From contig CP137667.1 in assembly GCA_037976565.1 (NCBI GenBank), forward strand, positions 33,177,420 through 33,241,419: a stretch of 64,000 nucleotides of DNA, in the 5' to 3' direction. The DNA comes from Mesocentrotus franciscanus (lineage: Eukaryota > Echinodermata > Echinoidea > Camarodonta > Strongylocentrotidae). Below are positions 6,400 to 39,084 of the stretch, one piece after another. The position numbers and the translations under genes are program-made. The notes under the pieces were generated by a model. It saw only the letters and a list, made by a program, of their open reading frames with translations, had not been told where the DNA came from and did not search any database. Within the stretch, counting starts at the first letter, position 1; each line of letters begins with the position of its first letter.

Positions 6400-6600
6400 T
6401 TAGAACCAGTCAGGAGCCCATTTATTACACCTTGTAGAATATATGTTCAATTTAATATGCAAGACATGTATGTCTCCCTGGGTCGGAAGTATACCTTGTT
6501 CAAGGATGTAAGTACCAAGCAAGAATTGAATCCGAGACCTTTTCCTATGAGAGGCCGGTCTACCGAAATTCAATTCTCTCAACTACACCTTTGTATTTCG
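6400..6600 (-). mobile_element. Possible tRNA-derived SINE fragment
   Basis: The reverse strand carries a B-box-like GGTCTCGGATTCAATTC and lies next to a dispersed AAGGTGCTC motif at about 6305 that also marks other SINE tails in this window. No full second copy was found in the window, so the call is tentative. Confidence 0.3.
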
Positions 6601-6606
6601 TATCAG

Positions 6607-6752
6607 TTCTTAGCCTCCCACGTGACTGCGCTGAGATTCAGACTGGTGGACTATCCCATCTCAGTGGAGTGTATCCCATATATCCCGATGGAGCTGGTGA
6701 TGATCCTCTCTTCGTTTACTGTGATATGGAAACGGACGGTGGCCGATGGACG
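6607..6752 (+). CDS. Fibrinogen C-terminal domain, exon 1 of 3 (gene C)
   Basis: Acceptor TATCAG at 6601-6606, donor GTGAGA at 6753, phase 1 to 0. The exon encodes the start of a fibrinogen-related domain: PRDCAEIQTGG, then SGVYPIYPDGAGDDPLFVYC, then DMETDGGRWT. DC and YCDMETDGG are the standard N-terminal hallmarks, and the two cysteines form the first conserved disulfide of the fold. It directly continues into the VFQRRQDGSVDF exon at 7507. Confidence 0.95.
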
Positions 6753-7199
6753 GTGAGAAATGATGATAGCAAGAATTTCATCTTTTTTTAACCTCATCCA
6801 CTTTTAACATGATCGCAAAGACTTTCAAGATGAATTTCAAAAATGAACCTTGCCTTGTGCGTCATTTATTGAAATATGCGAACATTACAATGAAGTATTA
6901 CGTAATCCGAAAAAATCCACTCTCCACCCTGGTGTAAACGGGTATCTGATAATTGCTGGGGTAAATTGAAGGGCCCTACTTGGTTATTGATATTGATTTG
7001 GTCGATTTTCTAAAAGTCTTTGCCATCGCATTCTTCTTTGTCCACAATCTAGACTGCGTATCCTTATCATTGGAGCGAAATCTGGTAACAGCCACTCTTC
7101 TTCGTGCTACACTTTTCAAAAGTAATTCCATAAACTGTGATAATAACGCACATCACATCTTCAATCATTCCTCTCTCAAGTGTTATTAATGTCCTGAAT

Positions 7200-8240: not shown

Positions 8241-8595
8241 CATCAAACGCACTCTCACATATGACGAGGTAAACGGCAGCGGTGTTTCATTTGCTTTTTG
8301 TGTTGTTGTTGATTGTTTTTGCTTGCTTGTTCGTTTGTTTTCTTTAACCCTTAAAAGGATAGCAAGTAGGGAATGGAGGGGTGAGAAAAGTATCCATGCT
8401 TAATAACGAATGCTCCTAAACGCATCCGTCTGTTACATCGAGATACAGAAGACACAGCATTCACCGACGGACGGACGGACGGCTTGGTACAATACAAGCA
8501 CACAGCCTCAAGTCGAGTAAGGAGAGATCGTATATTGAACTAATTTATATCATATGTATATGTATACTATAATTCAATTTCTCATTTCTATGCAG

Positions 8596-8843
8596 GTGAC
8601 AGTATGTCGTACCATGCTGGTTATCCGTTCAGTACACAGGACCGCGGTCATGGTAGTAAAGGGGGATACTGCGTCGGTCTTTACAAAGGAGGCTGGTGGT
8701 ACAATAATTGCTATCATGCTAACCTCAACGGCCTATACCTGAAAGTTCCAACAGAGAGGCACACCAAGGGTGTGGTATGGAAAGACTGGCTCGGTTTTAA
8801 ATACTCCCTCAACAAGGCGGAGATGAAGCTTCGCCCGACGTAA
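8596..8843 (+). CDS. Fibrinogen C-terminal domain, exon 3 of 3 and stop (gene C)
   Basis: Acceptor TATGCAG at 8589-8595, phase 1, stop TAA at 8841-8843. It encodes DSMSYHAGYPFSTQD, then YCVGLYKGGWWYNNCYHANL, then LNGLYLKVP and the terminal YSLNKAEMKLRPT. The WWYNNC motif and the second pair of conserved cysteines are intact, including the Asn-Cys step that forms the acetyl-group pocket in ficolins and tachylectin 5. The calcium loop is not: the family form DRDND is DRGHG here, so the second Asp is lost. As a secreted lectin it may act in opsonisation or adhesion; ligand and calcium dependence are unknown. Confidence 0.97.
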
Positions 8844-10836: not shown

Positions 10837-12682
10837 TCATTGCACCAAAGTGAATGGTCTCAGCTCTTTTTGGCCTTGCCGAGCCTCCTGTGATTTCGGA
10901 TGAAGGGGACCGAGATAAACCTTGAAGATCTCAAAGGCTCTCTTGTACTGGTAGAGGGAATACTTGTACAGCTTAGCATTGAAGAAGTAGGCTGCGAGAT
11001 TGGTTCTGGAAATGAAGTAGAACGATTTAAAACAAATATTTTTTCTTTCTTCAGACAATCTGAGAGAGGAGAAGACAAGATAGGATGTAAGTTTGTGTGT
11101 ATGTGCGGGTGTTTGTGTGTGCATTTGTGTCAGAAAGAAACAGAGGCTGGGGATATGTAGAAAGGGATCAAGTCGAGAGATTGAATGGGTATGTGAATCT
11201 GAGATATACAGCGAGTCTCACAAAAGGTGGACTACTTGCACAGTCTCAACAATTTACATTTCAAAAGCATCAGATTATTTGGTGTCAGTTGAAAGACGAT
11301 ATTCTCTGCTATCCATAGGAATGAAAATTGCCTGAGATTATTTTGATATACATCTTTTGGGAGACTTTTCTCAACTTCAAACTTCATTTTTTAGATGAAG
11401 TGTAAAAAGATAAAAGCAGAAGTAGACAGATTGCCATAAATGAATACAAAACACTGTTTTGCCGTTACATAGCGGTGAAAGATAAATAGACAAATATGTG
11501 GATTATCTAGACAAGAATGGGCAATGCTGTACATTTCAATAAATTCACTTATAATTATAGCGCGTTTACAAATTGAATTTGTGTTATTAAACAGCACCAC
11601 AGATTAGTAAGAGAGAGAGAGAGAAAGAAAAGGGCATGTTGAATCGAATGAAAATTTGAAGGAAAAAAAAAAATCGATATAGGCTGTATCATTGTTTTTC
11701 TTGTTTTCATGTTTCAGATCTATCCCTAAAGTATACTTTCAAAAATGCCTTTAAGAATGCTAAATACCTGACAGATGCGACGTCGACATGTACCGGTCCA
11801 TATGCATCAATGAGTATCGCTAAGGCCTCAACAAAGAATGGTAGGGCGTCCTCTACAGTTGGCTCAAGCTCCATCAGAGCCAAGCCAATGTTATTCAAGA
11901 TGGTCGCCACTCTTGGTTTTCCCAGCCCCGCAGTGCGTTGAGTCTCTATGATGTCGAGAATATGGTATTGCAAGGCCTCTGTTGCCCTGCCTTGCTTCTG
12001 AAATAACTCTCCAGTCTAGTAAGGTTCAATCCGAAAATAGAAATATAATTAAGGAGGCGTCATTTTCTCAAGTATTAATAATTAAAAATATAGTTTCATA
12101 AAATATGTATCCGAACAGGGCCGTATGTTAACTTTTGTATTAGTGAAACTTATATTGTCATAATGACCTAAAATTGTGAGGAACAATTGTGAAGGTTCGT
12201 TCATGCCGTGGTAAAACCGCTGTTTAGCTCCAATTACATAAACATATCAGATATTGTTCATAAAATCCCAGATTTTTTAATTCTCCGATACATTAGATTT
12301 TTATTGCATTCCCTGACTTTCCATGACTAAACAAAGAGGACAAAATTCCAGGTTTTTTAATTCTGAATTACAAGATATCTGGACCCTTGGGAAACTCTAG
12401 ACATATTTGTGATAGTACTGCCTATATATGACTCAAACAAAAATTACGGAATTATGATGAATTACCAGTCCATTCAGGGTTGCAACATAGTGATGATTCA
12501 TCGGTACAACTTGGTTGCACATCTCAAGGGCTTTTAAGAAGAACCGGCGAGCTTCAAAGAGTTGTGACGTCACACCATACACTTGGCTGAAACAAAAACA
12601 GAGAATGAGCAATTGAGAGAGAGAAAGAGAGGGAGAGATACAGAGACAAAGAGGAGCGAGAGAGGGAGAAACAGACAGAAAG

Positions 12683-12713
<31 letters not shown>

Positions 12714-15700: not shown

Positions 15701-17406
15701 TTATATTATGTTTTTAAGTTTGTATGAGATCAGGAGTGGAAATTTTCTGTCATTTTGAGAACCAAATTTTGCATCAGTGATATTCTGTTTCATTGAATTG
15801 AGTTTCCCGCAGAGAGGATTCAGTTGGTTTAATTAAAGAAGGAAGAGAGTCAAATGAAGAACCAAAAGCAATATGTTTTTCATTTACTAATGAGAACTAT
15901 GTTTTTGGAGATCTCCTTACACAGAATATTGGAATGGGTTTTTCACGATGAATGTTGTTTGGAGACATCAATATTCATAAAATGTATGTTTCTATCACCA
16001 GGAAATAAAGAATTTTCTGTCTACATGAACCTTTCCTGGTTGCTTATTAATGCATTTGCCCACTGGTAACATAATACTTTCACAAGTTGATATCCCTCAC
16101 CATTGGATTTTGTTTTGGTAATGTCTAAATTTCGTTTAAAAATAGATGATATCAGTCTGGTAGGCCTACACTGCAGGCAAGAGTCAGGACTAACATTTAG
16201 CATGTTATTAATTTTATTACCACTCTTATATTCTCTGAAATGTTATCTTTATTGAGGGTGACTTGAAAAAGTTAATAACTTGGAAGGGAGGGTGCAACCT
16301 GCCACACGCTTCTACCTCTTAGTTGCTTTGATCCATTGCCGAAAATATTTTGGCACCTATCATCCCCCAACCACGGATACAAATCGACACCCATGTGTGG
16401 TACACTGTGGATCATATGAAAGACAACATAATTACATACTCTTTCAATAAACAATGACATCATTGAAATCTACGGTTATTTTATATAACAAGATTCATTG
16501 CCGCAACAGGTTACATAATTTGATTCTTAGGCACTAAATATGCGTAGTTTTTAAGGTATGGGATGCTGACTTGAAATTCATGGCATTTTCTTCATTAATT
16601 TACTTCCTTTGACGCAAAATCCGAATATTTCCCTTTAAAAAAAACTCACCTCAATGACGTCACGATGTCTACCGGTCCTCCTGTTCTCATATCTCACGTG
16701 ATGTGTCACATGACAAACGTCATTTCTAGCATGAAGGTCCTCCAATGTACTCAAAAGTCTTTCATTCAATTGCCTGCATGTAGATACAAGCACATTGATA
16801 ACTAAGAAATGGATGAAATTCGAAAAGGTTAGGCATATTAAATCTTTTAGATCATTATTTTATGACCCGACATTGCCTCCTCCGACAATATTTATTGGTC
16901 CGGGCATTATTTCATCAAAGTTACAGGGTTAGGATTATACGGTCGCAATTGGGTTTAAGGTAAGAGTTACGGTAGGTGTTAGGTATAGTGTTGCGTCAAG
17001 AATTCGGTTAGTGTAGAAAATTTGAAGCGGAGCCATTGTCGCAGGAGCAAGTGTCATACAATCCTTAATTGCAAAGTCAACTCGGTAAACGCACAAGTAT
17101 AAAAAAATTTAAAAAAACTGCTAAATAATTCTAAATTATTATCTCGACATGTTTTCAAGAGTAACTTTTGATTTTCGTCTAGTTCTCCTTACACTATGGA
17201 TATTTTTATTGGAATGTTATGGCCCAAAGAGTTGTTATGCGATCAAATTAATACAGATCATACCTGGCAATTTTGAGGATACCCAGCTCTGTGAAGAAGT
17301 CTGTGAGACAAGCTAGAAGGGATTCCTTCTCCTTCACTTCCTTAAAAGCATTAGAGTGGTTGACGTATTCCAAGTATGCCTGTCCTGCTTGCTCAAAGCC
17401 CCCAAG
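10837..17406 (-). CDS. Gene B, C-terminal TPR-like exons
   Basis: Exons in transcript order are 17264-17406, 16650-16773, 13654-13799, 12466-12586, 11768-12015 and 10837-11005 (stop TGA 10839-10837). The translation is helical with TPR signatures: LLELGIVCQKLADYTAAAAY followed by FEDAL; LFQKQGRATEALQYHILDI; ILNNIGLALMELEP; FFVEALAIL; and in the last exon NLAAYFFNAKLYKYSLYQYK with RAFEIF. Such Ala/Leu/Tyr spacing is typical of TPRs of the kinesin-light-chain and NPHP3 class, which act as protein-binding scaffolds. In STAND proteins these repeats often form the sensor or autoinhibitory part. Here the lectin-like domains are at the other end, so the role of the repeats may be partner binding. 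This is inferred from family architecture. Confidence 0.85.
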
Positions 17407-20400
17407 CTAGATAGAAAATTATAAGTGTAATGATAATAATTAATTGTCAGCGCTCACAAGGCATCAAGCTTCGCTTATCTTGGAGCCCTGGCCAGTTCTA
17501 TTTCAAATTAGTTTATGAATCTACATGTATGTTTTGATGTATGCTTATTTTATCATGTATTTAGAACTGAAAAAAAATGAATGAAAATTAGAATAATACC
17601 AATAATTATAAATTGGTGCATGATTCGCTTTCTCACAGCCATATGAACATAATAGATTTAATTTGAGGTCCATTTAATTTCCATGTAGATCGTCATACAC
17701 ATACAAACGCTTAACGCATATAATCAAACAAAGAAAAAAAAGGGGTCGTCATAAACACAGATTCAGCCCAGGTTCTCATCATGCATAAAATGGTCGTACA
17801 ATAAATATACAAGTGCAATCTATGCATAATGGAAATCGGAAGCAAGCTCCTTATTTATTTTCGTGTTATTGTCCATATACAGCTTATATCCGATAATGAG
17901 TCTACGTGCTCACAATTGTTGATGGAAGCAAATGAAGAAGAGAATACTCATGATTTTAAATCCAACAATTTTTATAAGTTACAATTTGTTGACGTTACCT
18001 AACGTCTTTCTCAAGCGAATTGACAACAAAATAAGAATAATAATCTATGTAGCGTTTTCAAAGCAATGCCCAAAAAATGTGTGGGCCTGTGGTTCAGTGG
18101 TTGTGTGGGTGTATATGTGTGTATAGTGACAGCGAACATACACATAAGTAAAAAAAAAATAATATCATAGAAAAGGAAAAGCATCAATCTGCAAATTTTA
18201 CAGCATACAATTAGAGGAGAGTGCATTTGTCTTAGGAATCTCCATTGATCTTCATTATGTTACGTTATAAAATGGGTTCAAGAATGTAGCCAATGAGAAG
18301 CGTCAAAATGGATCACGTGTGCGTGCATTAATTTTAACCATACGCGCACGGGGAGTGCATTTTGGTGATATCAGCCGTGCAAAAAGTGCGCAACAAAAAA
18401 GCATAATGCACGGCTGCGTGTAAATCAATGGATGTTTACCATGCATTGCACAGTCTGGGTACGAGGTCACTGCCCTCGCGATCGTTATTTCTTATGAAGG
18501 TTGCAGGTTTACAGTGTTTAATATCGCCTTGCTAAGTAAGATTGTCGACCCATTTTATCAAACAAATAATACACAGGTTTTCGTTCGTGACGTTATGGCG
18601 ATGCAGCGCTATTCGGGTATTCACAATGGCATAAAATACACTCGGCTACGCCTCGTGAATTTTATTGCACCGTAGTGAATACCCTCATGCGCTGCATCGA
18701 CCATAACGCACTCACACCTGTGTATTATTTGTATAATAATCTCCATTAAGGCAGTGTTTCAACATAACTTTGCATTGCATTCTCGTAACACTCACATTTA
18801 AACAAAATATTAAGAAATGCGACTGATATGTTCCATGATGCCAGTCGCCAAGAGACTACAGCAGAGACACTCCCCCACACGCACACACATAATCGCCCAC
18901 ATGCATGCCCCAAACCTACATTCTCAAAGGACAAAAAACCACCTACTTTGTAGGCTAACCGGTGGCAATTAGATTTCTTAACACATGTCTTCATTCGAAA
19001 TTTTAGAAGTCTCCTCGAGACGATGGCCATTACATTGTTAGTATTTTATCATGCACAAAACACCAACAAACACAAAAACACACCAACAAACGCCAACAGC
19101 ACCGAAACATCCATTCATGCACAATTTTCATATTGGTTCTTTTCACTGCGCTCACGTGATGTCTAATAAGCATTTAATGATTTTTAGATCATATGATAGT
19201 AGACAAAATGGGAATTAGACAAACTGGAAATTTGACCTACTAGAAATTAGACTAAATGAGCAATAGACCGAATGGGCAGTAGAATTATTGTAGATTAGAT
19301 TAAACGGCAATGAACCGCCCTAACACACCCTTACCATTCTCCATGCTTGGATGAGCCGCACCTTGCCCTCTGATGCCTTCATGAGAAGTTGGAAGGCCTT
19401 GGGAATCATTACCACCGCCTTGAGTCGTGAGAGGTCACTCAGCTCCATCAGAAGGGTTGGTAATTCCTCCACCTGTAAGGGATTGGAAATTGTCTCATAT
19501 TTTTTATTATTCAGTTAAAGGTCATGCAATTTCATTATCGAACACTGACATAGCCTCCCAAAAATAAATATCTATCTAAAAAATATTATTTCATTTTTTT
19601 CATGGAGGGTATTCAGTTACTAAGTTTTATAATTTTTTGAAGTCTTTTGTCAATTCATGCCGTTTTTATTTATACACTTTAAAAAAAAAATCCTGATCAT
19701 ATATGTTTTAACGTCTGTCAGCGATTTAAAGAGAGAATAAAATAATATATATTATAATGAAAGTTTTCAGCCTTGTCTGCAAATTTGATCCGACACCTCC
19801 AATGCACTGTCAAGTGCATTGATGATAGCCATGCTGGCCATGTGAATTACAGGTAAAACAATTAATTCCCTTTCATGATTAACTAATTCATCATAAATTA
19901 GTTATACATACATATCTTTCGTTGATGTCCTGTTTCTCGAAGAACTCGGCTAGTTTGAGGAAGCCTCGTCTCTTATCTACCGGGATCGAGACGTACTTGC
20001 GCTCTACGGCCTGGCGTAGATGATCGTGAAAGAAGTTGACGATGCCGTTCCGATTGACGAGGTTTTCTTCGAGGGAGAGGTAGAACGGCGACCAAACACG
20101 GGATGGAACCTACAGCACAAACAAAAATAGAGAGAAAAAGAAAAAAACAACTTCTAGATTTAGTTCTGACTTTCCATCCGTCCTAGTTTAGATCATGACA
20201 GACAATGTTCCCAAAAAGAGTTTGAAACAGTTTAAAACAGTTATTGACTTATTACCTCACACAAAACCAGTTTTTCCTATTCAATTTTCCTCCGGCATAT
20301 TTTTATATCATGGTGCACATAGAAAATGTCTAAAATGCCGAACAAAAAAGCCAACTGTTTGCTCTTTATGGGATTTCTCACCTGCAGAAATGATATAAGT

Positions 20401-23400
20401 TCCTGTTCACTCATTCCCCTGCTACTGCACCAGATAGCGCAAGTTGTATCACGAACCAGGTTAGGTCTATGATAAGGAAATATTAAAGAAAGCACCCGTA
20501 TGCAAGTAAAATAGCACGAGATTTGTAAAGGGAAGGATCTTGCATAAAATCATACCCAAACCATCGGGGCTGATATTCTTAAAACATCACTAAGTCTAGT
20601 TGTCAACTAACTATGAACTTTAGCCTATGTAATAAGTTGACAACTAGCTTGTCTAGTGAATAACCACAGTATTAGTTACAATGTCATTCATAATGGCTTG
20701 CAAAATATTCACGCAATTCTTGAATCTCAAGCTCATTACAGCGTTCAGGAAAAACACATACAAATCTAAACATAGACGAGAAACAGAACTTTACAAACCT
20801 GGGTAGTATGTAGTATTATATATCACTGCAACGAAGTGCGGAGGCTATATGCGAATAATTGGCAGTTTCATACCAGAAAATAATAAGTTGTTCATCCTTT
20901 AAAAAGAAAAGGAAGAACATAAAGGCAGGAATGACTGCCCGATTTACCTTCCGTGTTCCCCGCGTTCGAAGTCGGACTCCAGTCGCTCTAAGACCTTGAC
21001 AAAAAGTTGTCCTGGATCCCGAGCTTCTAAGTAGGTCTTGATGGCTGCCGTGAGCTCGTAAAATGACCCATAAACACGCACCTAGGACAAACACAAGTAT
21101 AACACGAAAATATCATGGAAATAGTTCAGATAATAATACTAATAGCTTGGATTTACTTTTCCCAACTTTTAACGACTTTTGGAACAAGCAAAAAAAACTT
21201 TCCGAATTTCGTCACGTGTACAGTATCCATGAACTTAATGACCAACAAAATCAGTAGTCCACCGGTTTTAGAATGGCAAATGAAGATTAATGTCTTTCCA
21301 AAGGACAATAGTGATGTGGCAGGGATTCGAACCTCGAGCATTGTAGTTCATAGTCCAGTTACTTATCAACTCTACCACGATATATCCATATATATTTATC
21401 AACTATCAACAGAACCGACCTTATCCCGTTGTTGTGAAACCCCTGTAATAATGGAGAGACTTATACAAATCTGCACTGAGAATTTACACTCTGTGTAGAT
21501 ATTTCTGCCCTTCATAACGTGTTAATTATCTTATGTATTCTTGAAGACGATTGTCAGAGGTTTTCTGGATTCAGCTTTATAGGGACGTAACTACAGTACC
21601 TCCTGCCATAATGGCAAGGGGTGGGGCTAGAAAGAGAAAAAGAAGTGATAGCAGGAAATGGTGATAAACGGATAACATTACGTGAATAGATCATATAACC
21701 ACTTCTCACATCATCCAGTCACGCGATAGCTGATCATACAAATTATTTATTCTTGAACTGGTAAAATAATTTAATACAAATTATTATCCATCTGATCAGG
21801 ATCACTCATTTAGAACTTGTATTGGTGAAACACAACTTTCATGTACGAAGCCTCAGCTAAGAAATCAGGATACTCAAACCGAAATTTAAAGTCGACGTGA
21901 TTGGATTAGCATGTGCATGCTCTAAAAATGTGACTTGCTGATATTATTATCAGCGGAGTGGAGAGTAGGCAACCGTAAAGTCCAGAAATGTAATTGAATC
22001 CAGTGACTGGTATAATATCAATACTGTAAAACCTTTGGTCGGTTAACGTGAAAACAGTCATTATAAATTCACCTCATCTAGCAAGGCTCTTAGGTAAAGT
22101 GCGTTAGATGTCTGCTTAGCGTTAACAATCATATCTGTTTGTTCAGCATTGAGACTCTTTGAATAGAGCTCCATGTAGCATCGTATGATCTCCCCTTTCT
22201 CTGCCTGGTCTAATGGTTGAACGTGGAAGACTGGCCAGTTAAATGCTTTCACTGCTTCAAGTGCCTATGGATGATAATGATCGTAATAATGTCTTGATTA
22301 ATGGCAACAGTAGCAGGGAAAGATATTTTGAATGACATATGAAGGTTCTTATCACAAAAAGCTCACATTGCTGAATGTTCATAATTCCAAAAGCGTAAAT
22401 TTCCCATACCAGAGGGTTCATAAGTAAAAAGAATGATTACAAATTCACAATTTAGAAAAGTTTCGGCACTCCGCAGTTTCATTATCCGATGGATATCCGA
22501 TGGATCGTTAATCCGAAGGTCCATTATTCCAAAAAGGAATACAGTTCATTCTTCCTTATGTTCATCAAATTAAACATGGTTCATAATTCCAAAAATTAAA
22601 TCGGTTCCATCATACCAAATGGTCGTAATTCCAAAAGCAGCATTGAGGATAACTTGACATTTTCAGTATTATGAACAATTCGGAAAAGGAACATTTAGCC
22701 ATGAAGTAATACTCATAACAAAGCTGATTTCTGATATAAGTACTGAACACAATATAATGAAAAAACACAATACGAAAAAAGAAACAGAAGAAGAAAAGAG
22801 AGGTTGTGAAAAGTAATGAAGAAAGATTCTTTTATAGACGTAGAGCCATAAACTTAACGAAATAATATTCATATTTCTTTTTCATAAATAAACACTTTTT
22901 TCCGTAATGATTTCATATCTATTACCTTTCCCGGCAATGTGGAAAGAAGCATATGAACATTCGGCGGGAGCTCACGAGGTAACCATTTCAATTCAAGTTC
23001 ATCTCCTATTATAATGAAAAAGTTGATATATATATATCAGTTAATCACAATAATAATGTTATTCAGAACGGCTAATGAGAAATGAGGCACTCAACGAATT
23101 AAATCTTGGTGATGATCTAACGTTCTTTCCGACAACATTTCCTACATGTGTCTTTCGTGAAAGATAAGGGTTATGGTTATAGTTATTATGATTGCAATTG
23201 GGTCTTAGATTAGGGCATAGGGTAAGGTATATTGTTGGGTACAGGGGTGGAATTAGATTGTCAGAGAAGCATAAGTTTTAACGTGCTATCTATCTTGAAT
23301 GCTCAGTATTTCAGATGAAAAATACCGAATATAAAAATTAAAAAAATAATAATAATAATAACTGATGTCAACTTAAAGGATAATAGCAAGTGAATGAAAT

Positions 23401-29400: not shown

Positions 29401-32400
29401 TAGAGTAAGGGCATGTTATATTCTCAGGTGATTGGCATGGGCACACGACACGAAAACAGTCGAATTTGTTTTTGTTGTTGAGTTCAGCGTTATATGGCAA
29501 TCATTCAAATCAGACAGTGGACTATATAGTGTCACATACGTACCTTCAGTCTTAATCTTCACATTCCTTACACCAGCTCTGTATCCTTCAACGGTCAGTT
29601 TGACCCTTGACCAACTATACCTTTCCAGTGTTCCGCTCGTACATTTCTCTTGCACCACAGAGCCGTCCGATTCCTCGAGTGTGAGCGCAATGTTGTATAT
29701 AGCTCCCGAGGGGGCTGGTGACCGTAGCGATATTGAGAACTGTTTGAAAAAAAAGATGATTGATGAAAGGGACGATGGAAGCAACTTCTGGTGGCAAGTA
29801 CATAAACAAAATCATGATAGAAAAGGGCATAGCGTAGGTCTAGCTATTGAAGAGGGGAGGGGAGGGCACCGATGAGGAAAGACCGGTTTAACAGTGTAGG
29901 TAGATCAAATATGAGAGAACAAGGTTATCAGTTGAAGGGGTGGGGTAAACGCGATTCGAATCATTATCTTTTTGCGTTGTTTTGTCACCCACTCTCTCTT
30001 TTATTTTCACGCTTTCTGCCTTGGATGACAGGCATATGACACTCCCCCAATGCCCCAACACCCAGACACGCGTATGGTCACAACATTACAGATGCATGAA
30101 GGAGAAATAAACGGGCCTAAAGGATCGGGGTACAGACTTACCTGAACAGCCGGAGCTTTATCCAGACTACCCCCATCGAAAAAGTCTTCAAGGTTTAAGT
30201 GATATTCCTTTACACCCTTCTCACCAATCGACACCAGCCCTAAAGCAGAACCAGGGACACACGGGTATAATAAATATTTTTTAAATATCACAATAGCAAT
30301 GTGACATATCTAACGGATAGGACGAACTCCGCAACCAAAGGATCACAACTTTGGTCTAAAATTAAGAGCATTACAGCCATATTAGAATATATAATAAGAA
30401 AAAAAAATAATGATAAACGATCAATGATAAATGTTCCTTACTTTCTTCAACTCCGTCCCCGCCGTACAGTGATTGCCATTGAGTAGAATCTTGTTCCAGA
30501 ACCCTTTCCTGCTGGAAGAACATATCAGATTTACATTACTTTTGATTGGTGATGTATGAAGGCGCGATAGCTCAGTGGAAGAGCAGTGGTCTCGTAACCG
30601 GGAGGTCCCGGGTTCGAAACCAATTTCGATGCGCTAGTGCCTTTTGGTAAGGCATTAATCCTCATTACCAAGTCCTTCGGAGAGGACTTCAAGTCGTCGG
30701 TCCCCTGGTTGCTTAATTGCAAGCTTTACACATGCTTTCTTAGACGTCAGGTAAAACAAACAAACAATAAACATAATTGTTGATATCTTTTTTTTTTTGG
30801 GGGGGGGGGCTCCATTCCTACACTCTACAACTAACTTTTTCCTTCCTCGGATTACTATTTTCTTTCAAACAAGAGCCTTTCTTTAAACGAACCTTTACAT
30901 TATGGCTACATCTAGCGTAAATGATTTCAGAAACATAGTAGAAAGAGCGAAAAATCCGTGAAAATTTTGGTGGATCCTGATGCGAAAGCAACAGAAACCA
31001 AGTTAAAGGTTTTTTCTTTGAAAGATTACCAATACATTTTAATTGTAAACTTAACCGGGCTTAAGCTCACATTAAAAAAGGGTTATCTAGACAATAGATC
31101 GCTTTCTTTACAAACTTCTTTGCTTCTCTTTGAGAATAACATCACATCAGCCTCATTCCCGGAGCTGTACCTTCATATTGACTTAGTGTATGCATGATAC
31201 TTACTTTCAAGTATTAAGGGGGTAATTTGGGGGGGGGGGGTACTTGCTAACGTGTCAATGCTCGCAAATTTGAAGAAATTTGTTGTTGTGGTAAAGCAAA
31301 ATATTTCACAATAGGGGTCATATTCTTACAATGTTCCCAGACATATGACTATGCATGTAGCTGTTTTGTTTTCTTTTGAAGAAATAAGGTACTTGTGAAT
31401 GTGTACTTGATAAGCCAATAATAGGTTATACCCTAGAACCCATTTTGTACCTGTTAACGCAAAATGGGGTCATCTTGAAAATATGCAAATTGGGAGGTCC
31501 TCTTTGACCGAGCTAACGATCATATGTTACACCTTTGATTATGAAGGGGCTCCATTGGGGCCCCGCTATACACTTCGTTTGTTTTCTTCAAATAAAGTCT
31601 TTATTCAATTTTTCTCAAAGCATAAAACAGTATAAGCAAATGTACAACAATTATGGATACAAACGTTTGACAAAGAAAGGTACAATAAAAAACGAGATTC
31701 TAGTATGTTGTATTTAAATAAGTTGGACGTGCCTCCATCTATCAAGAAATAAAATAAACCGTAATAAATCTTATTGTGGATAGATTGTTTGTTCAACTTC
31801 GTAATGATATTCTATTTTCATTGTTTTAACATGGCAATGATAAAGATCCCTTCAAACATCTAATTGAAAAAAATTAATATTTTGCATACAAAATAACGAC
31901 ATTAAAAGAGGAATAATGTTCATTTAAAATGTCAAAGATTACATTATTAAATTTAATTGAAAATTAAATTATTGAATCAAATATATATTGCCTACCTTAT
32001 TCATCCTAAGGATATCTCCCGACCATGAAAGGTTGTTAAGGTCGTATCCAGCAATATGACGACCAAGAGGGGCAAGATCATCACCAATCTGTACCATAGC
32101 AAGTGAAAGGAAATATGCAATAATAATAATAATAATAATAATGATATTGGATATGTATAAAGCGCACATAATCCACCAAGTAAGGTGCTCAAGGCGCTCC
32201 AATATTATTACCCCGGCTCTGCTTGGCTACCGTATCAGTGCTCATAGCATTCAAGGTATACTTTCCTGTCGGTACCCATTGAACACCTGGGTGGAGAGTG
32301 GCAGATGTAGATTAATGTCTGTCCAAAGGACATTAGTGCCGCGGCGAGACTCGAACCGCGGGCCTTGTGATCGACAGTCCGGTGACTTATCCACTAGACC

Positions 32401-35400
32401 ACGACACCTCTATAAAAATGGTATTAAACAGCAGACTGTTTTGTACAACTCATTGACCACATACAAACACGCCTAACGATGTCGTAATGTCAATCGGTTA
32501 CAAATATATAAAACTAAAGATCACTGAACGATTTGACATGGATTGTATAATTGTGTAATGTCATCTAAGAGTTTCTGCAAACCAAATGAATCAAGATATT
32601 GGTTAAGCCAAGATGTAACAAAATGAATGAATAACTACAAATTCAATTAGTTTGACGACTTCATGCTAAACTTGAAGAGGTCTGAGATATTACAGATTAA
32701 ATTCAAGGGAAAACAGTAAAAACATGATCACTGCCCTACCTCTTGCTTTTGGTCCGCAGATAATTCTAGCTGTTCTTTACGGGAATGTGTTCCATTTGAG
32801 TCTTCATCGTGGACGAGGAGACCAGAAAGTTGAACACCACCACCTAAACAAAACGTTGCGAGAAATAAAGTCGCAATTTATATGTCCATAACGTATAATC
32901 ATGAAAATGAGTTATCAAATTCTGAATTTTGTTTGCATTGGAACACTTTAAGACTATCTGAAAAAATTTACATTTACATGGTTAATGATCAGAATAAAGA
33001 TTGGTAATGAAGTATTTACATTTACATTTTTGTCATCTCGTATATTATACTATTCTGATTAATCTTCGATGCATTTGATATACGCACTTTTTACATGTGA
33101 CTGGGTCATATTTATTCATAATTGAGAAGGTTTTTTTTGGAGGGGCTGAGTCTCCAAAATTCTGCCCCTGGCAGAAATCCATAGGATTATATTCCAACAT
33201 CAAGCAAAATCATAGCTTTATAATTTATTTTAAACTTGTGAATTTCATATCATTCAAAATTGACTTACCACGCTTTATGGAGATATCCAGACTATTGCCA
33301 GATGCAGTAACGGGAAATGATACTTTCTTCGCAGTGCATCCCGGGATCGAATCGACCTGACGACGTAATTGCTCCTGAATCTAGATTGAATAGGAATACA
33401 ATGGCGATGTACCAGATTAACTAGATCGGACCGTTCTGACTGCAGATATCATTGAAATATTTCACGATACACTAAGTGTCAAATTACTAAAATGTCTAAG
33501 CTGAATTATACAAATGTGTTTCAAAGAAATAACCGTCTGGCTTTGGGAATTCTTCAACAGAAAATGGCATTCGGTAACCTTATGTTTTAGAGGTGGCCAG
33601 TAGAGCAAGACGTAGTCTCAGTAGAACGAACCGTAGTTTTGAGATACTGAAGCTTACGAATTAATAATTCAGGTATACTTCGTAGTTTTCTGAACTAACA
33701 ATCAAGTTTTCTTCGTACCAAATTTCAAGTTGAATTCCTTACAATTAAATAAAGATTTTGTATATGGTTTTACTACAATTGGTATTCAAGTTGTCCAGAA
33801 AAGCAGCAGTTTAGAGCCAATCAGTAAGGGGCACATGTAGAGTACGAAAGAGGCTAGAGGAGTAGGAAATGGAAAGGGAGAGTTATGGGGCTTACTTCGA
33901 ATCATCGGGTCATCATTGCGTCCGGTCGGGTGGTCGCGTTACACGACCTTTCTTGAAACGAAAACGGAAAATGACGCGACATTTTGTATATTTGCCGTAG
34001 AGTTTTTACAAAGTTTCGGGTAAATTGGACCAGACCATTTGTAGATGAAAGGGTTTATTTCACGAACATTACCCCCGACATTGCATATAAAGGGAGAGAG
34101 AGAGAATCAAAATAATAATAGGAAACCAAGTATATGCAAAACGTGTATTGTAAGAAAACTTAATCAAAAATACAATGTTTAAAGTAATGATGGTTTCTTC
34201 GGGAGATCATGAACATCTAGGTCGGGCTGGTATAATATACTTCTTTCCTCGTTTTTCTTTCTGTTGCACAAGAGGCATCATTTTCCTGACGTAGCACTGT
34301 GTCAGTGATATGCTAGGTTTTTGACGCGTCACGTCATCGTACAAAAAATGATTGCAAAAGGAACAGTGCAGACAAACTTTCGATAATATCTTGTGTAAGA
34401 GGTAATTGCGTCCACAGGCTGGATTAGCACATTAAATAGCGCAAATGGAAGCGCAGGAAATAGCGCATTGGAAATGACGCATTATGTGCAACGGGCATTA
34501 CCTGAGTTGACACATCCTCTCCGTTCACTAGAGCTGTGACGTCATCTAAACCCAAGGACATCGTGAACAGTGTGACGATAAACCTCCCTTCGGGTACTGG
34601 GATCTGGAATTGAGAAGATAGCATCAATGATTGTGAAATGGATAAATAATAAATATTTATCACTTTTACACAAATCACAAATACAATTTATCAATAAAAG
34701 CTAAAGGTACCTGTTGACATGTTCATAAAAGTTGTTAATTTGCTCAGTAATTTGGCTGAGAATTAAATAAAGTGAACTCCTAAATAGCTGGATAGAAAAT
34801 ATTTCTAGTAATCCTTACTACTATCTAGTCAAAGAAATTTCAATACGAATAGGATTAACGAGAGGAGTAATATTTGTCGAAGAAAAAAAAATGATAGCCA
34901 ATACCCTACAAGTTTGCCTCGCATTTCCTTATAGATAGATTTTCACCCTGCAGTATATCGATAAGTGATAGGGGCATTGTCATAAATTGAACAGTTTAAA
35001 AGGGTCCACTTCGAATCATCGGGTCATCGCGTCCGGTTGTGTGGTCGCGTTACAAGACCTTTCGTGAAACGAAAACGGAAGATCATGCGACTTTTCGTAG
35101 ATTTGCCGTAGGGTTTTCACAAAGTGTCGGGTAAATTTGACCAGACCACCTGTAAAAGGGAGAGGTCATTTCACAAACAGTACCCCCGACTTTTCGGGTA
35201 ACGCGACCACCCAACCCGACGCGATGACCCGATGATTCGAAGTAAGCCGACTAAAAGCAAGTCTTACCTTGAACTCTACAGAATCAGTCTGGCTTGGTCG
35301 ATTCCCAATGAAAGTGGTGTACAACAGTCCATCTCCTGTGTTTCCGACCACTTGGTGATAGTTCCTGAATGGATCAATATGGCAGCCGTAGTAACACCCA

Positions 35401-38400
35401 TCTGCAATAACAACAACAAAAATGAGATTTCAGATATACTTTAAAAGCACTGACCGTAGTTTACGTGATTCATGAAGTGTTTGGAAAGCAAAAGGATATT
35501 GTTTTCGATAAGCAATTACGGGATCTACTTGAACGGCTAAACGACACATTTTATTGCCACATTATTGCTGTTCCGTCATTTCCTATAACTCCGAACCTTG
35601 ACCAAACACTTTATTTAACCCCAACCTTATCTCTAGACCAAACCTACAACCTAATTGCAAACCTAACGCTTACTCTTACCCTATACCTTTGGCGAAATAA
35701 AGCCCAGAGCAATTGTCCGGAGAAAAGGGTGGGTCACCATTAGGGCAGAGTTTCTGTTCCTGATAAAATGCCAAGTCCTGAATTAAAAATTCTGGGCCGT
35801 TGATATGCGTTGTTATAATCGTAGATTAATCGTAAGAGGTGCGATGAGTAAAATCAATTGGGAGGCTTGGTATTCATTTTTTCCTTTCAGGTAGCTCTTG
35901 TATTGTAAACTATAAAATGTAACACTTAATCACGGCATAGGTATAGAGAAAGTTACGTGGACGGAAGTCGCACTTTGTTAGAGGTCAAATTTTGGGGACA
36001 CCAACAGAATTCTCTCCCAAAGAGATTATACGTGAGAGGGGATGATTTGGAGCTGCAAGAAATGACTTGAACGCCTACGCTTGCGCGTGTCACAACTATC
36101 TTTTTCACTGTGTTATATATCAGGGACGGGCGCGATTCCTTCCATCATCTAAGATTTGCGAGAGAGGGAGAGATTCCAAACCTAAATCAAAGCACCATCT
36201 TATGTTATGACACAATCGATTTTCTCACCGGAATCTGAGCAGATAGAGGCTATCGCAGACCGTCCGTCATCAAACACGGTTCCATCTTCGTCCTCGTAGG
36301 CTGGGCCCCCGAAGTTGATGGCGAAGTGTACACCTGGTTTCTGCGTCCTGATTCGAAATGGCGAACCCGCCAATTCCACTGACACATCTTTTCTCTCTGC
36401 AAGATTTTTGTAAGAATGCTTTGTGAGAACGCTTGTAAATATTCGCACAGTATTATCTTCACTCAAATCACGACTAGACATGGCGAACCTGCCAATTCCA
36501 CGGACACCTCTTTTCTCTCGACAAGAATGTTGTGAATACTAAATTGTAAATTGAGCAGGTACAACTATCTCTCTTAATAATGTACGGTTCCTTGATGAAC
36601 TAGCACCGCCATTGTTGGACGCCATACAACTGACATGACGGACTTTATACGCTTATCATATTTTCAGAGAAATGATTTTAAATAATTTATTTTCATTTAG
36701 TTTTGTGTTTGGCAAAGCCGGTCTTCTTTGACAAAATTTGGTTTGATTTATCAATCATTTGAAATGTTAGCAAAGGAAAAATTCCCAATGAAAGACTTAA
36801 AAATGCTACCATTTTCCTCTTACCTTTGTTTTTTAAGGCAACGCTCGCCCTGAAGACCTTTACCCCCTTTCCTGCCTTGATTTCCCTTGAAACGTCTTTC
36901 TGAAGATGAACCGTCCTGACTTTTCCTCCAAGTCAGATTCCTGCACGACTTCGACAGCATCTTCGCCGGACTCGACCTTGATTTCGACCCGTCTGTCCGT
37001 CCAGACGTTCAGGAAACCCTCATCGACTGAGAGATGACCTCGGAACGGAGCATCAGCGCCGGTCGCGATGCAATCGCTCTGAAGACATCTCTTGTCGAGG
37101 TCATTAAGGTCTTCTGGTGCATTGGAGATGAATGCGTACCGACAGGGACCAGTAAGGTCTGGTTTCAGCCTCACCACCAACTTCCCAATCTTCTTACTCA
37201 CGAACCACAGTGATGGATTTGCCCGTGGAGTTGCCAGTGAGGGTTCATCTGTGCTTTTCGCGATGGTGTACACCCACCCTGTTCACCATCGGCGCCACGA
37301 AGTACAACACCGACGTGACAAGGTTAGTGTCAGGATTCGACCTGGAGCAGAGTAAGAACATTGCTCGGCCGTAGTGCGTGCGGATCTTGGGTACAAGAGT
37401 CGTGCTGTGCTCCCCGTTGTACGTTTGAGCGAAAAACACCTTTCCGCAAGGCGGGCCATCGGTTGCATCCCCAGCGTAATTTCGGTTGCAGAAGAACACA
37501 AAGTGACTATCTGGAGGGCCTTCGATCTTTACACCACTATCCTGTTTTATGTCAAATTTCCAGTTGTTTGTCATCTCATTGGACCCACATCTTCCAGCAG
37601 GGACAGCGTCCAACTTCCAGTCATCCCCAATCTTCTGAATCTCTACTTGATAGCAGCAGGCGACAGGTGTGTTTTCGTCAGATCTGGATGTGCTACATCC
37701 AATCAAGAAAGACCCCGTATGATCATCAACGGCATCCGCGGTGGAAGCAAATCCGAGCTCCTGTATGCTTATCACAAGGGTACCTTCTGGAGATGATTCC
37801 CTTTGCGGAAAGCGCCCTCCGCGGGTGAAGATAGCCTGATTGGAAAACAAAGTCACATTGTGCCGACCATCTCTCATCTTCATGATCAGATCCCCGTCTC
37901 GATTCGTTTGAAGATCCCTCGAGATAGAGTCCACAGAGCGTCCATTGTCTTTGGCTGCAGGTATACCTACCCCTGATGTCGAAATCAACTTTGTGTTGAA
38001 CGAATTCGAGTTGAAACCGGATTGAACCAGACTCAGCTGGCTTTTGGCGGTGGACTGATGTTGGTGGGTGTAGAGCAGGATAGCTGCAGCGCCCCCATGA
38101 CCAGCGTTCACGTTGTATGATAGGCCCTTCTCTCTTGAAAAGACATCCCCGTTGTACTCCTTGAAGGAGATAGTCGGTGGTGCTTCTGATAGTGTAATAA
38201 ATATACAAAAAAGTATAATTAAAAGAACGTGATTAAGATTCCAACGATTTATTTGGAATTAAAACGTAGGCTCACTCTACGAAATAGTACCCGAGCTTTA
38301 AAGATGGTATTATCAAATCATTCATCGTGTTAAGAATGGACATCTACGACTCCGCCAAAACATAATTATGAGATTCGTTGTATTGCAACGTTTAACTCCG

Positions 38401-39084
38401 ATGGACCTAAACGCTACTGATAACCTTGCAAATACTTCAAACGGATGTAGAACAATGAAAGGAGTTATATCCGTTTACGCCTATTGACCTGAGGGAAATC
38501 GTTCGTTCTTTCAAGGTCCCTCCCGTACTTTTTGGAAAAGCCAAGTAAAAGGCCAGAGTAATTCTCAAACTTGACTTCCCGAGGGCATATCTATCCTCTT
38601 TTCTAAGCATTGGCTTTGTTTCTTCTTTTTCTATTTCATGATACTAGGCGGAGTACAACTTTTTATATAATATCGTTAATCTCCCCTTTTGCATAAAACT
38701 GTACACTCATCGATCTCTCGTTTGAAAAAAATAACACGATGGCAAAGATTTTCCAGTAATCACAAATAGGGCAATTCCTTATCCATCATCTATTGAAATG
38801 TGCAAACAGATAACAATGACATTTTACGTAAAGCCTTCATGATTTCTATGGTATATATATATATATACACACAATTGGGCAAATTGTCCACGGGGGTAAT
38901 TTTCCGGTGGTAATTATCCTTGAGGTACCGTTTTCCGAAGGGGATTGTCCTGATACGCTCGAAAGTCGTTGCGACCGTCTTAAATAAAGGCTGGTGGAGG
39001 TGGGATATACTTACTGGAATAAGCTGCCATCGCGGAGGTGAACTCGCCTTCGTGTTGTGACCTGTCCGAGGCGTTCTCCCAATT
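10837..39084 (-). CDS. Gene B: malectin-FBA-DUF4062-NACHT-TPR protein, about 1,880 aa in 30 coding exons
   Basis: The gene was rebuilt from GT-AG borders, with exon phases agreeing at every junction. Coding starts at ATG 39030-39028 (G at -3, G at +4) in exon 39015-39084 and ends at TGA 10839-10837. The order is unknown N-terminal region (residues 1-459), malectin-like (about 475-665), FBA-like (about 715-882), DUF4062 (about 925-1050), NACHT (about 1125-1520) and TPR-like helices (about 1520-1880). The DUF4062-NACHT-TPR part resembles nephrocystin-3, TEP1 and NWD1-type STAND NTPases. There is no signal peptide or membrane segment, so a cytosolic site is inferred. Three single-base frame breaks (about 37275, 36922, 27235) sit in short homopolymers. 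The first two cancel each other and the third needs one added base. This suggests sequence error or a recent allele rather than an old pseudogene, as all other exons are intact. Neighbours are a lectin gene downstream and an Ig receptor upstream. Confidence 0.88.
12600..12800. repeat. GA-rich microsatellite in an intron of gene B
   Basis: Imperfect (GA)n and (CAGA)n with a short (TA)n. The reverse strand gives only Ser/Leu/Phe low-complexity frames. Confidence 0.9.
12880..13020 (+). mobile_element. SINE 3'-end fragment with TAA-type microsatellite
   Basis: An (ATA)n run at about 12883-12960 is followed by TTTTTATATAGTGCATTATACT and CTAGGTGCTTTCCATAGTAC, a form of the TATAGCGC...GGCGCTTT motif that flanks ATT microsatellites at about 3503-3580, 32118-32230 and 51145-51235. 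Confidence 0.4.
14532..15001. mobile_element. MITE built of CCCATATGGG words, ends CCCAGGTAGCAAGCCCAT
   Basis: The element starts CCCAGGTAGCAAGCCCATGT at 14532 and ends with its near-exact inverse, finishing GGGCTTGCTACCTGGG at 15001. The roughly 470-bp inside is a degenerate array of palindromic words such as CCCATATGGG, TGGGACCCA and AACCCATAT. Chance open frames on the minus strand (Met-Gly-Pro-Ile-Trp-Val type repeats) come from these words. It lies in an intron of gene B and has no coding role. Confidence 0.85.
16865..17060. repeat. Copy of a dispersed repeat with a GGGTTAGG-like core
   Basis: The copy runs from CCTCCGACAATATTTATTGG through GTTACAGGGTTAGGATTATA and GGTAAGAGTTACGGTAGGTG to AGCCATTGTCGCAGGAGC. 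Related orders of motifs, with ACCCTAACC-like cores in one or the other strand, are seen at about 23105-23275, 26940-27100, 35555-35740 and 45450-45610. Confidence 0.5.
18562..18735. mobile_element. Hairpin MITE with ends ACAAATAATACACAGGT
   Basis: The left arm CAAATAATACACAGGTTTTC continues to GCGATGCAGCGC and GGGTATTCAC. The right arm is its inverse (GTGAATACCCTCATGCGCTG to ACACCTGTGTATTATTTGT). The arms are about 65 bp with scattered changes, enough to fold over most of the element. It lies in an intron of gene B. Confidence 0.8.
19195..19320. repeat. Degenerate TAGACNNAATGG short-word array
   Basis: TAGACAAAATGGGAATTAGA, ATTAGACTAAATGAG, ATAGACCGAATGGGCAGTAG and similar words follow one another, ending just upstream (genomically) of the 19335-19472 exon of gene B. 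Confidence 0.6.
19335..25475 (-). CDS. Gene B, NACHT NTPase core and adjoining helical exons
   Basis: Exons in transcript order are 25329-25475, 24595-24920, 23890-24062, 22926-23005, 22073-22264, 20948-21081, 20382-20466, 19912-20109 and 19335-19472. The Walker A P-loop is VVLGESGSGKSALVANW at about residue 1185. Walker B is RRVLIVLDALNQLD at about 1270, with the Asp that would coordinate magnesium. Next come WLPRELPPNVHMLLSTLPGK, ALYLRALLDE joined to VRVYGSFYEL, and WCSSRGMSEQELISFL. These are the diagnostic blocks of the NPHP3/TEP1-type NACHT and its winged-helix tail (WLP..LP..V...LST.PG; LRVFGSFEEL; SRRGLSE.EL). The P-loop lysine and serine and the acidic Walker B are intact, so ATP or GTP binding and switch-like oligomerisation are expected of the family. 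All junction phases agree. Confidence 0.93.
21270..21390 (-). mobile_element. tRNA-derived SINE, family 1 (fragment)
   Basis: On the minus strand: GTGGTAGAGTTGATAAGTAA, then GAGGTTCGAATCCCTGCCAC, then TCCTTTGGAAAGACATTAAT. This matches the head and body of the copies at 1898 and 32118. It sits in the intron just downstream (genomically) of exon 20948-21081 of gene B. Confidence 0.7.
22380..22650. repeat. Degenerate TTCATAATTCCAAAA short-word array
   Basis: TTCATAATTCCAAAAGCG, CCATTATTCCAAAAAGGA, TTCATAATTCCAAAAATTA and GTCGTAATTCCAAAAGCAG recur with irregular spacing, separated by GGTTCAT or GGTCCAT links. Confidence 0.65.
23750..23885. repeat. GAA microsatellite abutting a NACHT exon of gene B
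   Basis: Imperfect (GAA)n on the plus strand reaching to within about 5 bases of the donor side of exon 23890-24062. On the minus strand it reads as an apparent Phe/Leu/Ser extension of the exon frame. It is excluded because a good GTAATA donor at the exon end precedes it. Confidence 0.9.
24128..24375 (+). mobile_element. SINE-like element ending in ATT repeat
   Basis: TGTCCTGGTATAGTGGTTTA (A-box-like) and AGGGTAGAATCTCAGCCC (B-box-like) are followed by a body and an (ATT)n run at about 24312-24375. It resembles family 1 in plan but is diverged. Confidence 0.45.
25531..25642. mobile_element. Short MITE with CCCTGTTTCATAAAA ends
   Basis: GAGCACTGTTTCATAAAACT at the left is inverted at the right as AGCTTTTATGAAACAGGGCC. 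About 112 bp, in an intron of gene B. A second, longer copy is at 43520-43659. Confidence 0.7.
26212..28336 (-). CDS. Gene B, DUF4062 domain exons
   Basis: Exons are 28014-28336, 27111-27280 and 26212-26289. The first starts with a polar linker (SSVPTSSTAECPKLLPA, later DPARTNPRKKR). It then gives the DUF4062 hallmark IRVFVSSTFLDFAAEREIL, SYVDLRWGITNDQSNDGQTI and SICLRE. The second begins IDRCRPYFLCLLGDRFGW, matching the LLG.RYGW block, but the frame then breaks. After W the read frame gives SQRKARSMN, whereas the +1 frame gives VDELLNKSYDYAIENFSHLK and ends YRFDSSVTQ. One added base in the AAA run near 27235 would join them and make the exon 171 bases (phase 0 to 0) as its neighbours require. 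The third exon, LEVLHSALRERENASDKTFF, completes the SVTxLE and FFYLR blocks. DUF4062 adjoins NACHT in NPHP3, TEP1 and NWD1; its own activity is not established. Confidence 0.92.
28737..30511 (-). CDS. Gene B, F-box-associated (FBA)-like domain exons
   Basis: Exons are 30442-30511 (NAGNAG acceptor, 3-base alternative), 30142-30239, 29544-29739 and 28737-28928 (alternative donor 6 bases earlier). The order of blocks matches the FBA beta-sandwich of FBXO2/6 and NCCRP1: YHLNLEDFF (family form QVIDL.AEG), GAIYNIALTLEESDGSVV (GC.Y.L.V.LL...VL), YSWSRVKLTVEGYRAGVRNV (W.EISH.FTDYGPGVRF) and GHGAEISAATLRLK (GARVTNSSV). Known FBA domains in FBXO2 bind high-mannose N-glycans. No F-box is seen, so this is not a standard ubiquitin-ligase adaptor. 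The match is by eye, and other galactose-binding-like folds remain possible. Confidence 0.68.
30558..30735 (+). mobile_element. tRNA-derived SINE, family 2
   Basis: The head GCGCGATAGCTCAGTGGAAG, TCTCGTAACCGGGAGGTCCC and GGGTTCGAAACC has tRNA A and B boxes and an anticodon-arm-like CGT. The acceptor stem does not close and a body (TGCCTTTTGGTAAGGCATTA) follows. A related copy lies on the minus strand at about 52470-52650. It sits in an intron of gene B. Confidence 0.7.
31996..36396 (-). CDS. Gene B, malectin-like domain exons
   Basis: Exons are 36229-36396, 35268-35401, 34502-34603, 33269-33380, 32740-32843 and 31996-32088, and all phases agree. The first carries FAINFGGPAYEDEDGTVFDD, the malectin opening (VN.GG..Y.D..G..Y..D). 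Next come HQVVGNTGDGLLYTTFIGN and the beta-sandwich core IPVPEGRFIVTLFTMSLG (family: pvpnG.Y.V.L.F.E) with VTALVNGEDV (FDV.inG). Then SFPVTASGNSLDISIKR and GGVQLSGLLVHDED give the closing strands. The last exon (IGDDLAPLGRHIAGYDLNNL and SWSGDIL) is less clear and may be a linker to the FBA-like part. Malectin in animals is an ER lectin for diglucosylated N-glycan; the domain occurs widely in other proteins. Here it has no signal peptide, which is unusual. Confidence 0.82.
32118..32410 (-). mobile_element. tRNA-derived SINE, family 1 (full-length-looking copy)
   Basis: Reading the minus strand from 32410: GAGGTGTCGTGGTCTAGTGG, CGCGGTTCGAGTCTCGCCGC, then CTCCACCCAGGTGTTCAATG. The 3' end is GGAGCGCCTTGAGCACCTTA and TTTATACATATCC with an (ATT)n tail at about 32121-32143. 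It is the best preserved copy in the window. Confidence 0.8.
33893..34083. repeat. Truncated copy of the TTCGAATCATCGGGTCATC hairpin element
   Basis: It shares ACTTCGAATCATCGGGTCAT, GGTCGCGTTACACGACCTTT, GAAACGAAAACGGAA and TTACCCCCGACAT in order with the element at 35009-35242, but lacks the right inverted arm. Confidence 0.75.
34262..34497. mobile_element. MITE of the GTTGCACACGAGG family
   Basis: Left end CTGTTGCACAAGAGGCATCA and right end TGACGCATTATGTGCAACGG are inverted repeats. Inside is TGACGTAGCACTGTGTCA, a near-palindrome shared with the copies at about 45615, 53340 and 60310. Roughly 235 bp; the right end lies 4 bases from the donor of gene B exon 34502-34603. Confidence 0.75.
35009..35242. 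mobile_element. Hairpin MITE with about 45-bp TIRs (CTTCGAATCATCGGGTCATC)
   Basis: The left arm CTTCGAATCATCGGGTCATC through TGGTCGCGTTAC is inverted at the right (GTAACGCGACCACCCAACCC to GATGATTCGAAG) with about three changes. It ends about 25 bases from exon 35268-35401 of gene B. Confidence 0.85.
36824..38185 (-). CDS. Gene B, large N-terminal exon of unknown domain, with two compensating frame breaks
   Basis: The 1,362-base exon is bounded by acceptor ATCAG (phase 1) and donor GTAAGA (phase 1). It encodes most of residues 6-459, following MAAYS and the split Lys codon from exon 39015-39084. The first part begins APPTISFKEYNGDVFSREKG; later segments include KIGDDWKLDAVPAGRCG and HFVFFCNRNYAGDATDG. 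The frame ends at a TGA near 37247, but from about 37275 a second frame carries on (VYTIAKSTDEPSLATPRANP, FVSKKIGKLVVRLKPD). From about 36922 a third continues (VRTVHLQKDVSREIKAGKGV, VFRASVALKNK) to the donor. The breaks lie at a GGG and a TTTT/AAAA run. They cancel, so total exon length fits both flanking phases. No known domain was recognised; it is rich in beta-type alternation and cysteines. Confidence 0.75.
39015..39084 (-). CDS. Gene B, first coding exon (start codon)
   Basis: Acceptor AACAG precedes 39084 and donor GTAAGT follows 39015. ATG at 39030-39028 has G at -3 and +4 and gives MAAYS plus a split Lys codon that joins exon 36824-38185 in phase. The frame is open upstream within the exon (from NWENASDRSQ), so a further 5' coding exon cannot be excluded. 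The only upstream candidate (42332-42426) does not fit the phase, which favours this ATG and a 5' UTR upstream. Confidence 0.65.

Follow-up and report, generated by a model that had tools for sequence, protein, structure and literature searches.

A sea urchin protein combining malectin-type and FBA-type folds with DUF4062, NACHT and TPR domains: a candidate lectin-like sensor of an old bilaterian STAND family

Can one gene join lectin-type folds to a DUF4062 domain, a NACHT module and TPR repeats, and what might such a protein do? The question arises from a minus-strand gene at 39030-10837 of a 64,000-nucleotide stretch of the Mesocentrotus franciscanus genome (contig CP137667.1, positions 33,177,420 to 33,241,419; hereafter the window). 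The original prediction, made from the letters of the window, was of a single protein with malectin and FBA domains upstream of DUF4062-NACHT-TPR, and the exon joints, the relatives and the folds described below bear it out. Sequence comparison and structure modelling place a sensor half (malectin and FBXO2-type FBA folds), DUF4062, NACHT and TPR in one chain. We give about an even chance to the reading that this chain is a STAND protein which works in the cytosol, belongs to an old bilaterian family and unites a lectin-like sensor, a NACHT switch and an NADase output.

Open frames, reading of the sequence and splice anchors define 30 exons with 5,642 bases including the stop codon, and the product, one protein of approximately 1,880 residues, is collinear with predicted relatives of 1,874-1,885 residues. 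The splice phases agree at every joint, as had been claimed, apart from frame changes within exons A and M. Exon 1 (39015..39030; ATG...|GTAAGT) holds the start codon and encodes MAAYS, the same start as in the predicted S. purpuratus protein XP_011660858.1 (P0001, 1,884 amino acids, MAAYSK...). The order that follows is an N-terminal beta region, an immunoglobulin (Ig)-like stretch, the malectin fold, the FBA fold, DUF4062, NACHT and TPR. No signal peptide is visible by eye at the N-terminus, in keeping with the cytosolic placement proposed earlier, and the protein is probably cytosolic.

When residues 1-870 of the joined protein served as the query of a homology search, five of the 7,991 proteins scored came back: P0001, predicted proteins from Lytechinus variegatus (P0002, 1,885 amino acids) and Diadema antillarum (P0005, 1,883 amino acids), a second predicted S. 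purpuratus protein without the N-terminus (P0004, 1,539 amino acids), and a 1,874-amino-acid protein from a contig of 5,944 bases (P0003). All five carry precomputed DUF4062, NACHT and TPR domains, and all five read through the joint between FBA exon K (28928-28737) and DUF4062 exon L (28336-28014), a point at which the original prediction had set a refuting condition of its own. P0003 is probably a transcript, since its contig hardly exceeds the frame in length, as against the 28-kb gene span here. That two adjacent genes have been joined in error is suggested by the stop that unspliced exon K meets soon past its splice site. We reject that reading as exceedingly improbable: it would need one error common to all five models, the P0003 contig could not hold a gene whose introns are this large, and a second genomic copy keeps exons K and L in identical order. 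Neither AATAAA nor ATTAAA occurs between the two exons, and no ATG precedes DUF4062 in the DUF4062 exon's own frame.

The family, as judged by sequence, is an old bilaterian one that is already present in databases: it spans echinoderms, hemichordates, amphioxus, molluscs and a nemertean, and precomputed FBA (PF04300) and DUF4062 occur together in 46 of the 120 relatives among the matches listed (of 287), mostly under the names "uncharacterized" or "FBA domain-containing protein". The named rows of those 120 include no vertebrate, arthropod or sea cucumber. The original prediction knew of no described family with this combination; the arrangement is not unique, though among the matches listed from open-licence full texts we found no paper that describes the lectin plus DUF4062-NACHT combination. 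DUF4062-NACHT proteins as such are already known.

For the C-terminal half, a tree of 38 rows (a further row had been intended but dropped out for want of the start motif) joins hemichordates with amphioxus (support 91/90) and molluscs with the nemertean (98/94), and the echinoderms come out as a single group (100/100). The echinoids split into two clades, each with support 100/100: clade a, which holds the window's copy and P0001-P0005 and is here called the sub-clade, and the canonical clade c. The stem branch of clade a is long (0.57). A genome scan found DUF4062 at six places in the animal's own genome (773 Mb, 21 contigs), including two clade-a copies (the window's and L003) and two clade-c copies on contig C11 (L004 and L005). 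The remaining two, L001 and L002 on contig C1, are further DUF4062 genes outside the lectin-fused family; with eight queries, L002 was closest to a Balamuthia protein, and for L001, Patiria and Balamuthia were at about the same distance.

The sensor half begins in exon A (36824..38185), which, according to the ortholog structure models, encodes the beta-rich N-terminus together with the greater part of the Ig-like stretch. Residues 1-380 of P0001, which correspond to this exon, form a confidently modelled beta-rich region that can be aligned from molluscs to echinoderms and that has no convincing fold match in the PDB. Exon B (36229..36396) completes the Ig-like stretch and opens the malectin fold, which continues through exons C-F (32740..35401 overall; C 35401-35268, D 34603-34502, E 33380-33269, F 32843-32740). 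The FBA fold, without its sugar-contact loop, occupies exons G-K (28737..32088 overall; G 32088-31996, H 30511-30442, I 30239-30142, J 29739-29544, K 28928-28737). In the intron ahead of exon B, at 36472-36533, 62 bases partially duplicate (84%) the stretch that spans the start of this exon.

The Pfam search that had been proposed as a check recovered DUF4062, NACHT and TPR from the window's copy. Neither FBA nor Malectin passed its cut-off, and the part ahead of DUF4062 matched no family at E<=1 in either the short or the corrected models. The two folds are supported instead by profile comparison with relatives and by a structure model, which was made for the S. purpuratus ortholog and not for the window's own sequence. 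The best matches of that model are FBXO2 and human malectin, the outcome anticipated for the window's letters and here obtained on the ortholog. Sequence and model together lead us to assign both an FBA fold and a malectin fold to the window's protein. Among canonical members scanned, 25/25 match FBA (PF04300) and 5/25 match Malectin (PF11721) at E<=0.01; of five sub-clade relatives, one matches FBA (E 0.0015) and none Malectin.

Comparison with the namesakes of these folds shows where the protein departs from them. FBXO2 and FBXO6 (Fbs1 and Fbs2) are cytosolic N-glycan-binding F-box proteins, whereas the F-box family found no match in the three scanned parts of the window's protein or in the corrected-model scan of the part before DUF4062, and the sugar pocket is lost in the sub-clade. 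Malectin is a protein of the endoplasmic reticulum that binds Glc2-N-glycan, whereas here the malectin fold belongs to a chain in which no signal peptide is visible.

Does the FBA fold retain what is needed to hold a sugar? According to the available part of PMC4603797, Phe177, Tyr279 and Trp280 of Fbs1 (FBXO2) are essential for N-glycan binding. We took the corresponding columns from one MAFFT alignment of 51 rows, 6 from the sub-clade and 45 others. The window's copy has Gly, a gap and a gap at the three positions, and all six sub-clade members carry Gly, Asn or Leu in place of Phe177 and have the Tyr-Trp loop deleted. Outside the sub-clade, the Trp280 position is Trp in 43/45 and Arg in 2/45, the Tyr279 position is Tyr or Phe in 31/45, and the Phe177 position is His in 25, Tyr in 9, Phe in 8 and another residue in 3. 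Both canonical copies in the same genome retain the Trp (GNDDKGW, GEDDKSW). The loss of these aromatics makes it unlikely that the window's copy would bind N-glycans through its FBA fold. The N-glycan sensor of the original prediction is hence disfavoured for this copy and may hold for canonical members.

DUF4062 supplies a possible output, a role absent from the original prediction. The domain spans exons L-N (26212..28336 overall; L 28336-28014, M 27280-27111, N 26289-26212) and matches PF13271 with 51.7 bits against a cut-off of 24.7 (E 1e-13). A preprint of May 2026 (PMC13174449) reports that DUF4062 domains act as NADases of the TIR-like type, both in the defence of bacteria and in human TEP1; in TEP1, E1008 is required while R908A and R976A lower the activity, R908 not being termed essential in the available part of the source. 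In a comparison with the TIR-like crystal chain of TEP1 (11gz), the DUF4062-NACHT part of P0001 gives a match with E 3.9e-16; the numbering of the chain was set by fitting R908, R954, R976 and E1008 jointly, which one of 20 offsets satisfies. The E1008 equivalent (SVTQLEV) lies where exon N starts and is the candidate catalytic Glu: 50 of the 51 rows have Glu there, and one has a gap. The R976 equivalent is Arg in all 51, and at the R908 position, 42 of the 45 rows outside the sub-clade have Arg or Lys. NADase activity is plausible.

TEP1, the vault-associated telomerase protein component 1, shares with the window's family the order of a TIR-like DUF4062 followed by NACHT, as well as the equivalents of the catalytic Glu and R976. 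It differs in that the window's sub-clade has lost the R908 equivalent, that the sensor half here is lectin-like, and that TROVE and WD40 are unmatched in Pfam scans of the parts of the window's protein. The bacterial Swarozyc DUF4062 systems likewise join a suspected NADase executioner to a sensing module. KpSwz, as described in the available part of PMC13174449, consists of DUF4062 and an auxiliary domain, without NACHT or TPR, and its trigger is a phage portal protein.

Exons O-S (22073..25475 overall; O 25475-25329, P 24920-24595, Q 24062-23890, R 23005-22926, S 22264-22073) mainly encode NACHT, as judged by Pfam and residue conservation. PF05729 scores 41.7 bits against a cut-off of 26.7 (E 1.4e-10), and the window's copy retains both Walker A (GESGSGKS, exon P) and Walker B (LIVLDALNQLD, exon Q), as had been reported from the letters. 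The Walker A Lys is kept in 49/51 rows and the Walker B Asp in 51/51. By sequence, the protein thus qualifies as a STAND/NACHT NTPase, and not as an NLR (NACHT-LRR) protein: no LRR is among the 19 families matched by the DUF4062-to-end part, which ends in TPRs instead. Exons T-Y (16650..21081 overall; T 21081-20948, U 20466-20382, V 20109-19912, W 19472-19335, X 17406-17264, Y 16773-16650) encode the helical part after NACHT and the first TPR-like part. The TPR repeats and C-terminus (TPR_12, E 3.8e-21, above cut-off; TPR_10) fall in exons Z-AC (10837..13799 overall; Z 13799-13654, AA 12586-12466, AB 12015-11768, AC 11005-10837, which holds the stop codon). On the minus strand at about 14450-14980, an intron part is by eye full of degenerate CCATATGGG-like repeats. 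Nephrocystin-3 (NPHP3) has the same DUF4062-NACHT-TPR order, and weak matches to its Pfam models occur in the window's protein, yet these stay below cut-off: TPR_NPHP3 at 48.5/100 bits, NPHP3 at 16.2/33, NPHP3_N at 17.9/24.8 and NPHP3_hel at 16.2/27.9. To our knowledge, NPHP3 carries neither a malectin nor an FBA fold.

How might these parts work together? A ligand on the sensor half would lift autoinhibition, NACHT would exchange nucleotide and oligomerise, and the TIR-like DUF4062 domains thus brought together would hydrolyse NAD+, with cell death or a stress signal as the putative end result. In canonical members, the likely class of ligand would be glycans misplaced in the cytosol. FBXO2-type FBA proteins have reportedly been linked to damaged lysosomes (PMC7605537 and PMC6389600), and on that ground exposed glycans would be a natural trigger. 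Given that its sub-clade has lost the FBA sugar pocket, the window's copy probably recognises something else or helps the two canonical copies of the same genome.

Several points weigh against the sensor-switch-NADase reading. The mechanism as a whole rests on inference, and activity, ligand, oligomer and expression are all putative. Profiles built from the sub-clade alone match neither malectin nor FBXO2 in the PDB. In another search, in which malectin did match, an unrelated aspartokinase comes next after it (E 0.0027). Retained aromatics are no proof of sugar binding in canonical members, because FBXO44 has Tyr, Tyr and Trp at the three positions yet binds no sugar (available part of PMC4603797). 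Human NPHP3, NWD1 and NWD2 were found inactive despite having DUF4062 (available part of PMC13174449), the match to TPR_NPHP3 stays below its cut-off, and the R908 equivalent in the sub-clade is Leu in 5/6, including the window's copy, and Thr in 1/6. Two other functions may be drawn from such facts. In one, the lectin folds would be scaffold or protein-binding modules of an NPHP3-like ciliary or trafficking ATPase without NADase output; the NPHP3-type models that match the C-terminal half, the inactivity of human NPHP3 and the poorly conserved malectin-fold columns (5/188 invariant in 11 canonical members) all favour it. We consider it rather unlikely, in view of the Trp280 equivalent and catalytic Glu that are so widely kept and of a TPR_NPHP3 score at 48.5 of the required 100 bits. 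In the other, to which we allow a minor but real likelihood, the echinoid sub-clade would be a regulator which, without the FBA sugar pocket and the basic active-site position, modulates or guards the canonical copies. The sugar-contact residues lost in 6/6, the Leu or Thr at a position that is Arg or Lys in nearly all others, the long, fully supported stem branch and the presence of both kinds in this genome speak for such a role; the retained catalytic Glu and Walker A and B speak against it, and interaction with the canonical copies is purely putative.

The window's copy might, alternatively, be a young pseudogene, the sub-clade's working gene being the second copy, 6.4 Mb off on the same contig. 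The original prediction contained no mention of frame disturbances, of which there are three in total: exon A shifts frame near 37277 and 36897, and exon M once near 27220. Exon A and the exon M region are each in a single frame in the second copy, compared over residues 5-1321 of P0001. That copy has one TAA within its DUF4062 match in the genome scan; the TAA probably lies just beyond the exon end, as the aligned exon is free of stops. A stretch of exon A at 37276-36899 was considered as an intron and rejected because the ortholog encodes it. We hold the pseudogene reading to be unlikely, since the two shifts in exon A jointly restore the frame and the 27 other exons, when joined, contain no in-frame stop (B-L, 531 codons; N-AC, 833 codons). 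Branch-private changes, counted with Lytechinus as outgroup, are for the window's copy 21/309 sites in N1, 3/135 in N2, 4/170 in malectin, 8/185 in linker plus FBA, 8/76 in the next linker, 1/225 in DUF4062, 6/410 in NACHT and 8/324 in TPR; the P0001 branch has 20, 3, 6, 6, 4, 3, 2 and 3 in the same order. Changes frequent N-terminally and rare in DUF4062 are as expected under selection, and from this pattern, constraint on the window's copy seems to have held until recently. The disturbances may equally stem from an error of the assembly or from a young lesion.

If the sensor-switch-NADase reading is true, invertebrates possess a glycan-triggered, NAD-depleting immune or damage switch. It would unite cytosolic FBA lectins (lysosome damage, glycoprotein disposal) with DUF4062 NADases (phage defence, vault), which have been studied apart, and would offer a candidate trigger for animal DUF4062, a trigger that the available part of PMC13174449 calls unknown. 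The natural pocket loss in one echinoid branch, with Trp-keeping copies alongside in this genome, offers a ready-made comparison. One may go further and picture an old bilaterian cytosolic glycan alarm, in which the two lectin folds would detect sugars exposed by ruptured endosomes or lysosomes or by entering microbes and the NACHT switch would lead to NAD+ depletion by the TIR-like DUF4062, with echinoids splitting pocket-bearing sensors from pocket-less partners like sensor/helper immune receptor pairs; we regard this extension as speculative and improbable.

Other features adjoin the gene in the window. On the minus strand, Ig-domain exons at 51502-52110 and 53608-54087 (C1-set, E 1.4e-6; I-set, E 2.5e-9; Pfam) probably belong to a separate gene upstream; they were rejected as part of the present gene because its exon 1 at 39030-39015 matches the ortholog start. 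On the plus strand, EGF and fibrinogen_C exons (Pfam) at 1275-1565, 6456-6791 and 8544-8843 probably form an adjoining fibrinogen-related gene, and frames at 2195-3063 resemble, by eye, a retrotransposon endonuclease.
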